This document shows, in pieces, positions 16,901 through 21,997 of a stretch of DNA of 21,997 bases (position 1 is its first letter; each line of letters starts with the position of its first letter). The translations under genes and the position numbers were made by a program. Where the stretch lies: the IMG/VR virus record IMGVR_UViG_3300018428_000220, positions 1 through 21,997 of that record; one strand, given 5' to 3'. The notes beneath the pieces are model-generated. The model ran no database searches. It had not been told where the DNA came from and saw only the letters and a list, made by a program, of their open reading frames with translations. The stretch is from a virus.

Positions 16901-18520
16901 TTACTTAATAACCCACATGTAGTCACTTAATATATTACTACGACTTCTCGTATTATTTAAATCTTGTTTCACGTTGTTAGTCAATCCGCTGCTGTTTGGA
17001 CTTGAACTATAAACACCAGTTGGAGCAAATACTTGCTCAGGAGTGTCGTTATAAGATCTTTGATTTTTTGACATCGCAGCAAGCATAGCATCGTTTAGTC
17101 CTGCATTTGACTTTGAATAATCAGATGCACCATCAAAGAGCCATGAGCCAATTGCCAAACTCATGACTAAGTCATCATTAAAACCTGCTCTTGCTTGAGC
17201 TCGACCGGTATTCCAAGTAAACACCTTAAGTTCTTCATAAAATCTAGAGGAGTAAGAGATCAACTGCCTATTTCTAAGAAGTTCTTCTAGCTTTGCCAGC
17301 ACGGTGCTTCTTGTCTTTCCATTTGTGTTAAATCCAGCGATGTCTGCAGAAGAGGGAGGAACATAGTCACCAATGTAGACTTGTTTCTTTTTTCTGTAAT
17401 AAAGCTTAGGATATTTAAGATCTTGTAATTTTAAAATTGTCGCATAACCATAAGAATTATTTTCTGGACAAACTAACGCTTTGTTATATTTTAAACCAAA
17501 TTCATTTATAAGCTCAGCAAAATTATCGGGCCTGATTTTACCCTTATACTCAGCAACAACTTCAGATGTTTCTGTGTCAATTATGTGAAACGTTGAATAG
17601 TCTTTTGAGTCGCCTCTTGATACGTCAGCAGATAAAATATAATTGTTTGCGCTAAGAGGATACTTCCATATCCAAACGTTCCTATCAAAACCTTGTCTTT
17701 CTACCGGTGGCTTAACAATTGTTCTCATCCATTCTAGAGCATTGCTGTCCAAGAATGTTTCACCTGATGTAGCAAAATCGCACAAGTACTCCTGCGCAAT
17801 CTGTCTTCTGTTCATGTTTTTAGTTGTTTTTTCAAACCACTCATCATCTCTTTCTGGATGCACATTCCACGGAAGATTGATGGCATTGAATTCATTAAGA
17901 CCTGCTTCTGCATCAACATAAAGTTGATGATACTGGCCACCGACGCCGTTAGGTGTGGACAAGATAATAACTCTACCACCGGTTGAAATTGTAGGATAAA
18001 TACCCGTCCAGATTGTGTCAAAGTTTCTAACGAACGCAGCCTCGTCAACGATTAGAAGCGAAAGTGCTTCTGAGCGCCCAGCATCTTCAGATGTTGGAAT
18101 TGCTTGTATTTGTGATCCGTGACTAAATTTAATTTTTTGCTTATTGTTTTCAACAATGTCAGCTAAGATCATCCACTTAGGAAGAGATCTTATCATTGTC
18201 TTAACTTTAGTAATAAAGTTCTGAGCAACTGTTAGCTTGGTAGCAATAATCAGAATATTCTTTTCTTTCTGAAATATCGCCATCCATACTGCATATGCAG
18301 CGACTAGAGTTGAAAGCCCTAACTGTCTAGACTTGAGAACTATATTAAATCTATGCTCAAGAAACTCTTCTACACAATCATCCTGAAAAGGGAACGTTTC
18401 AAAAGGAATAAGGCCCTTAACAGGATGCTGAATTTTTAGATAATTTTTAAAGAAATAATTTGGATCTTTTCCACACTTGATTATTTCTTTAACTTGTAGC
18501 TGCTTATTATACTTCGCCAT
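16901..18520 (-). CDS. gp17: Terminase large subunit gp17-like
   Basis: Packaging motor with ATPase and nuclease domains; it cuts concatemeric DNA and pumps it into the prohead. It has 539 residues. ATPase motifs are Walker A KSRQLGLST (63-71), Walker B LLIVDEAAF (155-163, E160) and coupling motif ILSTPNG (186-192). The RNase-H-like nuclease has SADVSRGDSKDYS (D299), PENNSYGY (E353) and FNDDLVMSLA (D449/D450). Walker A has LS where T4 has KT at the fifth and sixth positions. The start ATG sits in the loop of a small hairpin and lacks a clear Shine-Dalgarno. No small terminase (gp16) was found nearby. Confidence 0.95.
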   Translation of the reverse strand: MAKYNKQLQVKEIIKCGKDPNYFFKNYLKIQHPVKGLIPFETFPFQDDCVEEFLEHRFNIVLKSRQLGLSTLVAAYAVWMAIFQKEKNILIIATKLTVAQNFITKVKTMIRSLPKWMILADIVENNKQKIKFSHGSQIQAIPTSEDAGRSEALSLLIVDEAAFVRNFDTIWTGIYPTISTGGRVIILSTPNGVGGQYHQLYVDAEAGLNEFNAINLPWNVHPERDDEWFEKTTKNMNRRQIAQEYLCDFATSGETFLDSNALEWMRTIVKPPVERQGFDRNVWIWKYPLSANNYILSADVSRGDSKDYSTFHIIDTETSEVVAEYKGKIRPDNFAELINEFGLKYNKALVCPENNSYGYATILKLQDLKYPKLYYRKKKQVYIGDYVPPSSADIAGFNTNGKTRSTVLAKLEELLRNRQLISYSSRFYEELKVFTWNTGRAQARAGFNDDLVMSLAIGSWLFDGASDYSKSNAGLNDAMLAAMSKNQRSYNDTPEQVFAPTGVYSSSPNSSGLTNNVKQDLNNTRSRSNILSDYMWVIK

Positions 18521-18543: not shown

Positions 18544-18924
18544 CTAGCTTATTTCAAAAACGTGAACTTGACGAACGAGAGCTGTGCCTTTATCTGAGTA
18601 TGAGTGATAATTCATTAGTTCAACTGAAGAGTCGTTTGAGAGTTCTTTCGTCTTGAGCGCTCTGCCAGCTTTCTCTTTGAATAGTTTTTTGACATTTGAC
18701 AAACAATCTTTTCCAATTTTCTTTAAATCTTTCTCAGACTCTTTAGCTGCTTGCTGCATCTGATTTCTGTCTCCCAGATTTACAATCATCATGCAGGTCA
18801 TTCTGAGCCTGTCTTCTCCTGTTATTTTCATAACACATTTAATTGATCCAGTATATGATTGAAATGCTGCTCCGTACAAATCTTCAACAACGGTACTTAA
18901 GATATTTGTCTCTTCGAAATTCAT
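18544..18924 (-). CDS. Unknown small protein
   Basis: Protein of 126 residues that I do not recognise. It is a mix of beta-rich N-terminus (SYTGSIKCVMKITGEDRLRM then TCMMIVNLGD), a Lys-rich helix (QQAAKESEKDLKKIGKDCLS) and a beta C-terminus (TALVRQVHVFEIS), an alpha/beta layout of a small complete domain. No membrane segment or signal peptide is seen. The ATG overlaps the previous stop (ATGA), and GGAG lies five bases upstream inside the previous gene's last codons. It sits just before the terminase, 23 bases away. Confidence 0.7.
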   Translation of the reverse strand: MNFEETNILSTVVEDLYGAAFQSYTGSIKCVMKITGEDRLRMTCMMIVNLGDRNQMQQAAKESEKDLKKIGKDCLSNVKKLFKEKAGRALKTKELSNDSSVELMNYHSYSDKGTALVRQVHVFEIS

Positions 18925-19199
18925 TTTATCTCCTGCCTTTTAGACGCATTAATAATTAGCCTCTTTCTACCATTTATGTATTTTCTTATTACACTTTTTT
19001 TAGGGCGCCACCCTTCTGACCACTCTTTTTTTCGAGATTCAACAAACGTAAGATAACATTCATGACAACAGGAATGATCAGAATGACTCTGGTGATCACG
19101 TTCTCCTCCTAATATAAATCCACATAGATTACAAAAGAAGTGATCTCTAGAGCTGCTCTCTCCTTCTCTAACAAACTTAATTTCATACTGCTTGGACAT
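18921..19199 (-). CDS. Small zinc-binding protein
   Basis: Protein of 92 residues with a metal-binding cluster: C23-x2-C26, then H36, H39, H42 and C44, C45, C48 in GGERDHQSHSDHSCCHECYL. This resembles a zinc finger or ribbon. The rest is basic (KKEWSEGWRPKKSVIRKYIN then GRKRLI), so nucleic-acid binding is plausible. It overlaps the 3' end of the Mre11-Rad50 fusion by 17 bases and the next gene by four. I recall similar small finger proteins beside gp17 in other aquatic phages but cannot name a family. Confidence 0.75.
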   Translation of the reverse strand: MSKQYEIKFVREGESSSRDHFFCNLCGFILGGERDHQSHSDHSCCHECYLTFVESRKKEWSEGWRPKKSVIRKYINGRKRLIINASKRQEIK

Positions 19200-21997
19200 A
19201 AGAATCTACTCCTGACTTCATGATATCAATTGTATTATCAACAATATCTTTTATCTGGTCGATGTGAGAAATCACCAAAATATTCTTAAATGATTTTTTA
19301 AGTGATTGTAGAAGTCTACCACAAGCTGCCAAGTTTGTTTCATCCAAAGATCCAAACCCTTCATCAATTATAAGCATCGAAGACTTAGGAAGCGAAGAAA
19401 CATTAATAAGCGCAACACGAATAGCAAGTGAAGAAATCATCTTTTCCATTCCCGAGCCTAATTCAACAATTCGCTTTGAATCTCCATAATCAATAAATAC
19501 ATCCATTGCATTAGACTCTAAGTCTGCTTCTAGAACAACTGTAAATGCAACAACACCCTTGAGAATCTTTGATATTTCTTTATTAATCTTAGGAAGAAGT
19601 GAATTAATAATCTGTACTGGAATGCCTCGCTTAGAAGTGGCTTGAATAAAAAGATCTTGTACTTTGAGTTGTGTATTTAGTTCATCAAATTTCTTTTTAG
19701 ACTTTTCTGCATTTTCAATTGAAAGTCTAATTCCTTCAATAATACGAATCTTATCTATTCTGTTTTCGTCATTTGAGCGTAAAGATTTTTTCTTAGAATC
19801 AAGAAGCCTAGACACGCCTGACATGTCGCTTTCTGGATCTTGCCCGTCAAATCGCTTTCGCAAGTCTTCGCTTATTCTCTTTCTTGTTTTGTATTCATTT
19901 TGAAGATTTTCTAGATCATTTTGTGTAGACTGAATCTTAACTCTATCGTTAGAGATCTTTGTGACTAATTCTGATTTTTTCTGTATTATCGAATTGTATT
20001 TTTCAATCTTTTCTTCGTAATTTTCTTTCTTTATTTTTTTGTATGATGTTGACAAGTCGTCGATGTTGGTCTGAAGCTTGTTAACCTTCTCTCTCTTTTC
20101 TTCAATTTTGTTTTTGTTTCGGTGAGAATCTTTAATAAATTTGCATGTAGGGAAATTATCACCACAAGGAACTTCAAGAAGTCTTTTAACAGATTTCTCC
20201 ATTGCATCAAGCTCGGTGGTCTCTGCCTTTAAAAATCCTTTGAGCTCCCACAGTGTCTTTACCAGCCCTTTAGAAGAAGAGTATTTTTCTTTCACATCGT
20301 CTATGTCAAAAGAATCTATAAAGTCTTGAATTTTTTTAATTTTTGCTTCTGTGTCAAAAATAGACTCTTTGTATTCGTCTAGATTTTCTTGCTTTAAATC
20401 AATTTTTTCCTGTAAGGAAGCTGCGAGGTTTTCTGCATCTTCGACTTCTGTCACAGTGACAAAGTCTCGGTCTGTATTTTTAAGCACTTCTTTTGTAAGT
20501 TCTTCAATTTCGCTTTCTAACGCAGATTTTTCTTGATTGATCTTGTCAAGAATAGTTTGATTGTGACTCATCTTAATATTTAAATCATCAATCTGCTTAG
20601 ACCAACTGCTTTCAGCTGTGAACTGTTTAAGTTCTGATCTCAGGTCAGAAGTTTCTTTCTTAGCAATTTCATTCATGTCATCAAATACACTCATATCTAA
20701 AAAGCTAGATAGAATATTTTTTCTTGCAGTGGCTTTTTCTTTGATAAAGACGTTCATCTCGCCCTGAGAAGCAAGACTAGTCATATGGAATTCTTCCGAA
20801 GTGCCTATCATTGAGCGAAGAATTTTTTCAGATTCGCGGCGCTGTTCTTCTGTCTTGTCAGTTACAATATTACCTGCGCTGTCAAGCTGATAGACTTTTA
20901 AATTAGTAGGTGCCCAAACATTATTTTTTGTAGTTTTCTTTACAGTCTCTCTAATAACTCTAAAAGGGACACCGTTTACTGATATGTCGATCTCTGTCTT
21001 GCACTGATTTTTTCTTGAATTAATAATGTGAATATTCTTAATCGAACCGCGATCTGACGTGTTGAATAATCCATACGCAATTGTTCCGATTATAGAAGAT
21101 TTACCTCTTGCATTTCTACCAAATATACCTGTAATACCTGGGAGCTTATCTAAGTTTATTTCATTAGACTCACCATAACAAAATGTATTATCAAATGAGA
21201 TTTTATTAATTCCCCACTTAACATTGCGCAAATCAGAATTTTCTTGAGTAACTTCTGAGAGATACGTCGCAGTTACTTTGTCTAGCTCATCCCACTCTTC
21301 TTCTTTGATATTACTACCTGCGTAATACTGTCGCATTAGATCTTTCATTACTTTTGGATCTCTGAGATTAAGAGAATCAGTCTTGCTTTCTTTTATCTTT
21401 TCAGCAGAAAAAGAGTTATCGATTTTAAATACGACTTCTGTTGCATTTTTTGATTTCTTAAGCGCTTTTTGCAGTGCTCTTGTTTGTGCGGGTGTAATGT
21501 AGTCATTAACAGCACTGATTCTAAAGCGCGAAAGTCTAGAATGAGAAGAACAAGCCTTTACAGTTTTTTCAACGTCACCTCGCCACTCAACAGTGACAAA
21601 TTCATAGTTATTCTTGACAGGATAAAACTCAACGTCAAAATCATCTTTTGATCTAATGTCCCACAGCAAGAATCCTTTTTCGCCATCTTCGCCGTAATTT
21701 TGTTGAATTGTGCTTCCACAATATGCAACTGTCTTCTTAGTGTTTAGAAACTGTCGTTTATGAATATCACCAAGCAGACCAAAATCAAATGCATCAAAAA
21801 AACTAACGGGTACTTCTCCGTCAAGCGACCAATCAATATCTGTTAGCGACCCTGCAACTGCGCCATGAAAAAGTGCAATCGACACGTTCTCTGTGGGTTT
21901 TACCTTGTCCCAATTTTCTTCATCAAAACAAGAAAAGACACACCAGTCAAACCCTGGTATGCCAGTTGGATATACTCCTGAATCTTTATAGAGAAAG
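19183..21997 (-). CDS. gp47/gp46: Recombination nuclease, gp47-gp46 (Mre11-Rad50) single-chain fusion, 5' truncated by window
   Basis: The frame is open from the right edge to 19183 (938 codons; N-terminus outside). Residues below count from the GTG at 21885. Mre11/SbcD part: ALFHGAVAGS (4-13), FDFGLLGDIHKRQF (33-46) and AYCGSTIQQNYGE (54-66), matching late phosphoesterase motifs. Rad50/SbcC part begins about residue 224: Walker A GIFGRNARGKSS (253-264), long coiled coils, a possible zinc hook C574-x6-C581, ABC signature-like VELGSGMEKMISS (about 807-819) and Walker B MLIIDEGFGSLDE (about 837-849), followed by VISH. In T4 gp46 and gp47 are separate proteins that form an end-processing nuclease for recombination and host-DNA breakdown. 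Here both are on one chain with no stop or restart between. The same single frame runs through the junction. Confidence 0.92.
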   Translation of the reverse strand, partial: FLYKDSGVYPTGIPGFDWCVFSCFDEENWDKVKPTENVSIALFHGAVAGSLTDIDWSLDGEVPVSFFDAFDFGLLGDIHKRQFLNTKKTVAYCGSTIQQNYGEDGEKGFLLWDIRSKDDFDVEFYPVKNNYEFVTVEWRGDVEKTVKACSSHSRLSRFRISAVNDYITPAQTRALQKALKKSKNATEVVFKIDNSFSAEKIKESKTDSLNLRDPKVMKDLMRQYYAGSNIKEEEWDELDKVTATYLSEVTQENSDLRNVKWGINKISFDNTFCYGESNEINLDKLPGITGIFGRNARGKSSIIGTIAYGLFNTSDRGSIKNIHIINSRKNQCKTEIDISVNGVPFRVIRETVKKTTKNNVWAPTNLKVYQLDSAGNIVTDKTEEQRRESEKILRSMIGTSEEFHMTSLASQGEMNVFIKEKATARKNILSSFLDMSVFDDMNEIAKKETSDLRSELKQFTAESSWSKQIDDLNIKMSHNQTILDKINQEKSALESEIEELTKEVLKNTDRDFVTVTEVEDAENLAASLQEKIDLKQENLDEYKESIFDTEAKIKKIQDFIDSFDIDDVKEKYSSSKGLVKTLWELKGFLKAETTELDAMEKSVKRLLEVPCGDNFPTCKFIKDSHRNKNKIEEKREKVNKLQTNIDDLSTSYKKIKKENYEEKIEKYNSIIQKKSELVTKISNDRVKIQSTQNDLENLQNEYKTRKRISEDLRKRFDGQDPESDMSGVSRLLDSKKKSLRSNDENRIDKIRIIEGIRLSIENAEKSKKKFDELNTQLKVQDLFIQATSKRGIPVQIINSLLPKINKEISKILKGVVAFTVVLEADLESNAMDVFIDYGDSKRIVELGSGMEKMISSLAIRVALINVSSLPKSSMLIIDEGFGSLDETNLAACGRLLQSLKKSFKNILVISHIDQIKDIVDNTIDIMKSGVDSYVQAV

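Follow-up and report, generated by a model that had tools for sequence, protein, structure and literature searches.

The stretch of DNA analysed here, called the window, is the 21,997-base virus record IMGVR_UViG_3300018428_000220 of IMG/VR. A gene fusing Mre11 (SbcD) and Rad50 (SbcC) lies near its right end at 19183-21996, on the minus strand like all the features described below. It is a single open frame of 937 codons plus a stop, with no internal stops and no frame break across the Mre11/Rad50 junction, and it extends past the right edge of the window, beyond which lie about the first 106 codons. A GTG at 21885, proposed in the ORF list, was rejected as the true start because the frame stays open up to the window edge. 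On its own, the fragment in the window has Pfam matches of the Rad50 type and none to a phosphoesterase, because phosphoesterase motifs I-III fall beyond its end. Eight relatives in viral contigs span the whole or nearly the whole of the fragment with 41-87% identity; the gene is complete in all of them (1,042-1,050 aa), and the relatives 77-87% identical to the window gene have a complete protein of 1,043 residues. These relatives add about 106 residues on the N-terminal side of the window part, and it is there, the window lacking this region, that motifs I-III were read: DxH (ADVHWRG), GDxxH (GGDIVH) and GNHD. The full-length relative used as a reference (L001, 87% identical) has Pfam matches to Metallophos (3.6e-11), AAA_23 (4.4e-13) and SbcC_Walker_B (1.6e-4). 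An earlier note made from the window's sequence had described one frame bearing metallophosphatase motifs followed by a full Rad50/SbcC-type ATPase with coiled coils, and had looked to the region upstream for the N-terminal phosphoesterase motifs; Pfam, the motifs and the predicted structure confirm the first point, and the relatives supply the second.

Is the fusion genuine, or did a sequencing or assembly error merge two adjacent genes through a lost stop or a frameshift? A profile scan of the viral collection found 288 related stretches, of which the best 80 loci were kept; in 79 of these 80 a single frame holds both halves (a contig end cuts one of the 79), and the motif test failed for L083. 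Taken together, the loci yield 74 distinct fusion proteins longer than 1,000 aa, coming from many samples, and those sampled are 43-87% identical to L001. The two parts are joined by a linker of about nine residues in the predicted structure (21220-21246). It corresponds to window residues 251-259 or so, and not to the surroundings of residue 224 where the earlier note had put the junction. In a comparison of the window with L001 the Mre11 part gave a corrected dN of 0.03 and dS of 1.13, and the segment comprising the linker and the binding helices a dN of 0.09 and dS of 1.50; for the first Rad50 lobe dN was 0.06 and synonymous sites were saturated. With dN far below dS, these rates indicate that the junction is conserved and under purifying selection. 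There is no conserved internal start near the Rad50 part, and 17 of the 74 genes have no ATG, GTG or TTG near its beginning. Production of a separate Rad50 from an internal start was likewise rejected, as neither a conserved start nor a Shine-Dalgarno site occurs near the junction.

Artefactual fusions of this kind probably do exist, as in Listeria phage LMTA-57 (KJ591605.1 / NC_047871.1), whose gene is annotated as a 1,009-aa 'recombination exonuclease'. Among the matches listed, the gene is fused in this one genome only; in sister phages that are 97-98% identical the alignment falls into two pieces, mostly corresponding to two annotated genes. In the tree the LMTA-57 gene clusters with the split genes of Herelleviridae, apart from the other fusions. 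It is thus probably a frameshift or sequencing error between two genes that the sister phages keep apart. Its junction, however, differs from the one described here, having a spacer that ends in Met ahead of the Rad50 part. Given 74 distinct full-length fusions with a conserved linker, a sequencing error at the junction, which the earlier note had named as a possible refutation, is a vanishingly unlikely explanation, and we take the window gene to be a true fusion.

The part of the Mre11 half within the window comprises the rest of the phosphoesterase domain, with motifs IV and V (21640-21996), the capping domain (21415-21639), and a predicted Rad50-binding helix-loop-helix (21247-21357) whose two helices span L001 residues 320-330 and 338-356 in both models. 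Mean pLDDT of the predicted structures was 82.6 for the full chain and 87.5 for the Mre11 part. When the Mre11 half was compared with known structures, 39 Mre11/SbcD entries, at Z 19.8-26.4, came before any other phosphoesterase; Mre11/SbcD chains match over L001 residues 1-301, and the nuclease and capping domain matched Staphylococcus aureus SbcD with Z 26.4 and an rmsd of 2.9 over 277 residues. In the region of the predicted Rad50-binding helices, matches to 3tho_B and 6s6v_A reach residue 357-362, but at a high rmsd that probably reflects differing domain placement.

The motifs of calcineurin-like phosphoesterases (DxH, GDxx(D/H), GNHD, IV and V) are all kept, with one deviation. In L001 numbering, D8, D44, H47, N80, H81 and D82 are present in 55 of 55 aligned proteins, H10 in 54 of 55, and H150 and H185 in 56 of 56. 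Motif IV (ALFHGAV, 21856-21876) contributes the metal-ligand His, invariant in all 56. The deviation is D183, which replaces the first His of the GHxH of motif V (GDIH, 21760-21771); this Asp and the second His are both present in 56 of 56. GLLGDIHKRQ, which the earlier note listed among the metallophosphatase motifs, holds motif V, reading GDIH and not the canonical GHxH. Thermotoga maritima has GHIH here, the His in question binding metal in Mre11. The 74 fusion proteins have GDIH (70) or ADIH (4), and hence Asp without exception. The substitution is not a unique mark of fusions, a reading that was rejected: the split SbcD of T5-type phages has GDLH, and the fused protein of phage PAU has GHIH.

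Because motif V has Asp in place of a metal-ligand His, catalysis is not certain. The nuclease half could be dead or altered and the protein mainly an ATP-driven DNA tether, a possibility to which the presence of Asp in 74 of 74 proteins and in Mimivirus R555 lends some weight. The other metal ligands, however, are all invariant or nearly so, Asp is itself a metal ligand, and the same Asp occurs in the stand-alone SbcD of T5-type phages. The strict conservation of the site speaks for activity, and we regard a dead or altered nuclease in a protein that is mainly a tether as quite unlikely.

The Rad50 half has the expected organization, with ATPase lobe I at 20680-21219 (recognized by Pfam, predicted structure and structure matches) and lobe II at 19186-19623, separated in the predicted structure by a descending coiled-coil arm (20173-20679), a hook tip (20143-20166) and an ascending arm (19636-20133). 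Lobe I has the Walker A motif GRNARGKS (21097-21120), with its Lys invariant in 56 of 56; lobe II has the signature SGMEK, Walker B (IIDEGFG), the D-loop and the H-switch. Walker A, the Q-loop, the ABC signature, Walker B, the D-loop and the H-switch, distributed over the two lobes, are all invariant in the 56 aligned proteins; the ABC signature in the fusions reads SGME, not SGGE/Q. Rad50/SbcC structures match this half at Z 25.5-28.9, the best being Pyrococcus furiosus Rad50 (28.9). The hook is another matter. The tip reads CGDNFPTC, a C-x6-C arrangement and not the canonical CxxC zinc hook. Among the 74 proteins C-x6-C is found in 71 and C-x8/9-C in three; CxxC is found in none, though both coiled-coil arms are present. 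By contrast, CxxC is present in every one of nine split pairs and of seven fusions that are more distantly related.

How common are such fusions in phages, a question the earlier note had left unanswered? They are very common in this aquatic phage group, and occur also in cultured jumbo phages and in giant viruses. The named phages with a fusion are Microcystis phage Mel-JY01, Tenacibaculum phages pT24 and PTm1, Chryseobacterium phage MA9V-1 and Sphingomonas phage PAU; from the same search, PTm5 and MA9V-2 likely carry it too. It is also found in a 735-kb metagenomic phage. No fused relative was found in the plasmid collection. Bacterial genomes yielded five loci (L117-L121), of which L117 and L120 adjoin phage structural genes. 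L117 (NHDW01000006.1) is a 305-kb phage contig binned in a Methylococcaceae MAG, in which a RecA match recurs with equal score 280,180 bases apart, suggesting that the genome is complete at about 280 kb and that the contig's ends overlap.

The fusion gene itself appears to be invaded in two relatives. In a 484-kb phage (LR756508.1, L012:2313-6538) an insert with a 305-aa ORF that matches TnsA-like endonucleases breaks the gene immediately behind motif V (GDIHKRQ); the insert is likely a homing element, with no match to an Rfam intron, and neither L012 nor the window gave any Rfam match. In L120 (positions 3-140) an in-frame, intein-like C-terminal end precedes the fusion protein and is joined to it at the GNH motif, making an intein insertion likely.

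A tree built from Mre11 and Rad50 head columns places the fusions on one side of a branch with 93/86 support, a split recovered in 92% of bootstrap trees; its branches are long, and it covers neither the giant-virus nor the cellular fusions (Mimivirus R555 and the others described in 2011). The topology is compatible with a single fusion event in these phages, without proving it. The window's phage and its relatives form a large fusion-only clade, and this clade and its C-x6-C hook are new details. It is possible, though we hold the idea only tentatively, that throughout a large clade of aquatic phages of the T4 type the sole Mre11-Rad50 is the single-chain form, its hook re-engineered to C-x6-C and the metal site of its nuclease re-liganded. 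If so, metal binding at the C-x6-C tip may differ, a disulphide may form there, or dimerisation may do without zinc, and these phages may have altered the way in which the Rad50 arms are joined.

Downstream of the fusion gene, and overlapping its 3' end by 17 nt, is an ORF for a 92-aa Cys/His-rich protein (18921-19199) that is not part of the fusion; it has three relatives in viral contigs and none in named phages. The terminase large subunit gene (16901-18520) is a conserved downstream neighbour. In the three relatives examined, the genes for a RuvC-like resolvase (a weak assignment, with a Pfam match of 1e-3 in one locus, below the cut-off) and a DnaG-like primase lie upstream of the fusion, and those for terminase and portal downstream. 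RecA/UvsX is encoded in all seven records tested, one of which is a bacterial MAG holding a phage contig. In each of twelve viral records, of 29 to 293 kb and possibly incomplete, so that a second copy may have been missed, Metallophos matches once and SbcC strongly once, and both matches fall in the fusion gene; one of the twelve, G011, has a second SbcC-like match in another frame, which is weak (E 2e-4). In one relative (L003:5387-7686) the fusion gene directly follows genes for an AAA_5 (MoxR-like) ATPase and a DUF2201 (VWA-like) protein; in L006 and L117 this pair was not seen in the corresponding position. Flavobacterium immuto phages, whose terminase is similar, were considered as holders of a split pair beside the terminase and rejected, the two adjoining genes having no such domains.

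Given the RuvC-like, primase, RecA/UvsX and terminase neighbours, the likely job of the protein is to process DNA ends for recombination-dependent replication. A different view would be that it serves mainly in host takeover or defence, through host DNA degradation or as a Lamassu-like sensor, and not in phage replication. In its favour, the Lamassu LmuB profile (1.9e-29) and Lamassu structures both match the Rad50 half; further, T4 46/47 mutants are described as deficient in host DNA degradation as well as in recombination and DNA replication (PMC5105663). But a match to LmuB is expected because Rad50 and LmuB are homologous, and a defence-system reading of it was rejected as a case of shared ancestry. 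Moreover, the Mre11 nuclease half is complete, the gene is single-copy in the large records of the group, and in three relatives it lies downstream of primase and upstream of terminase. We consider a takeover or defence role unlikely.

Computed domain content, folds, conserved active sites and single-copy status make it very probable that the window, from a marine T4-like phage, encodes an Mre11-Rad50 (SbcDC) enzyme in a single chain; by analogy with SbcCD and T4 46/47, it would process and tether DNA ends for recombination-dependent replication. SbcCD is an ATP-controlled exo- and endonuclease (PMC6265447). In the mechanism we propose, two copies of the protein would dimerise via Mre11, via ATP-engaged Rad50 heads and via the hook at the coiled-coil tip, and the Rad50 heads, by binding and hydrolysing ATP, would govern whether a DNA end can reach the two-metal site of the nuclease, in the manner of SbcCD and T4 gp46/47. 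Once ends were resected and tethered in this way, RecA/UvsX could initiate recombination-dependent replication on the linear phage genome; host DNA degradation may be a further role. The fusion probably fixes a 1:1 stoichiometry, and the covalent link through the Rad50-binding helices probably replaces part of the inter-subunit binding. That fusion fixes stoichiometry and tethers nuclease to ATPase, as the earlier note had suggested, is a reasonable proposition. Our search of the literature found no published experiment or assay on any phage Mre11-Rad50 fusion.

There is good support for a genuine fusion that is common among a large group of aquatic phages, but it is a known kind of fusion and not a new idea, since Yoshida, Claverie and Ogata described Mre11/Rad50 fusions in 2011 in Mimivirus (R555), plasmids, bacteria, eukaryotes and a Bacillus phage (PMC3175470). 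In marine viral metagenomes they found homologues of R555 at high abundance, and they proposed phages as the carriers (PMC3175470); complete phage carriers of such R555-like genes are now identified. A compact one-chain enzyme of 1,043 aa could ease structural and mechanistic work on Mre11-Rad50, and the natural hook variant offers a test of whether the CxxC zinc hook is essential.

Compared through the text of that paper and through structural neighbours in BFVD, rather than through the R555 sequence, the window protein resembles R555 in having Mre11 N-terminal and Rad50 C-terminal, GDxxH in motif II, the His-to-Asp change in motif V (Asp242 of R555; PMC3175470), capping and helix-loop-helix regions and a short linker. 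It differs in length (about 1,043 versus 1,351 aa) and in belonging to a phage and not to a giant virus of eukaryotes. The top BFVD neighbours are giant-virus proteins of 969-1389 aa, the closest also include jumbo-phage proteins, and most of these proteins are as long as a fusion. Mel-JY01, pT24, PTm1, MA9V-1 and PAU likewise have both halves in one gene and share the fusion side of the tree, but are only 16-29% identical to L001 and have a canonical CxxC hook and, except for Mel-JY01, longer coiled coils (1,301-1,326 aa). The T4 gp47/gp46, T5 D12/D13-type and Herelleviridae SbcD/SbcC pairs have a homologous nuclease and ATPase and presumably the same role in phage replication; they are, however, encoded by two genes, have the CxxC hook and fall on the opposite side of the tree, and the T4 and Herelleviridae nucleases have GHxH in motif V. 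Escherichia coli SbcCD shares the folds and the catalytic motifs, but is distant in sequence, with GHIH in motif V and a CPLC hook, and, as in T4, its two genes correspond to what is here, as the earlier note had supposed, one polypeptide.
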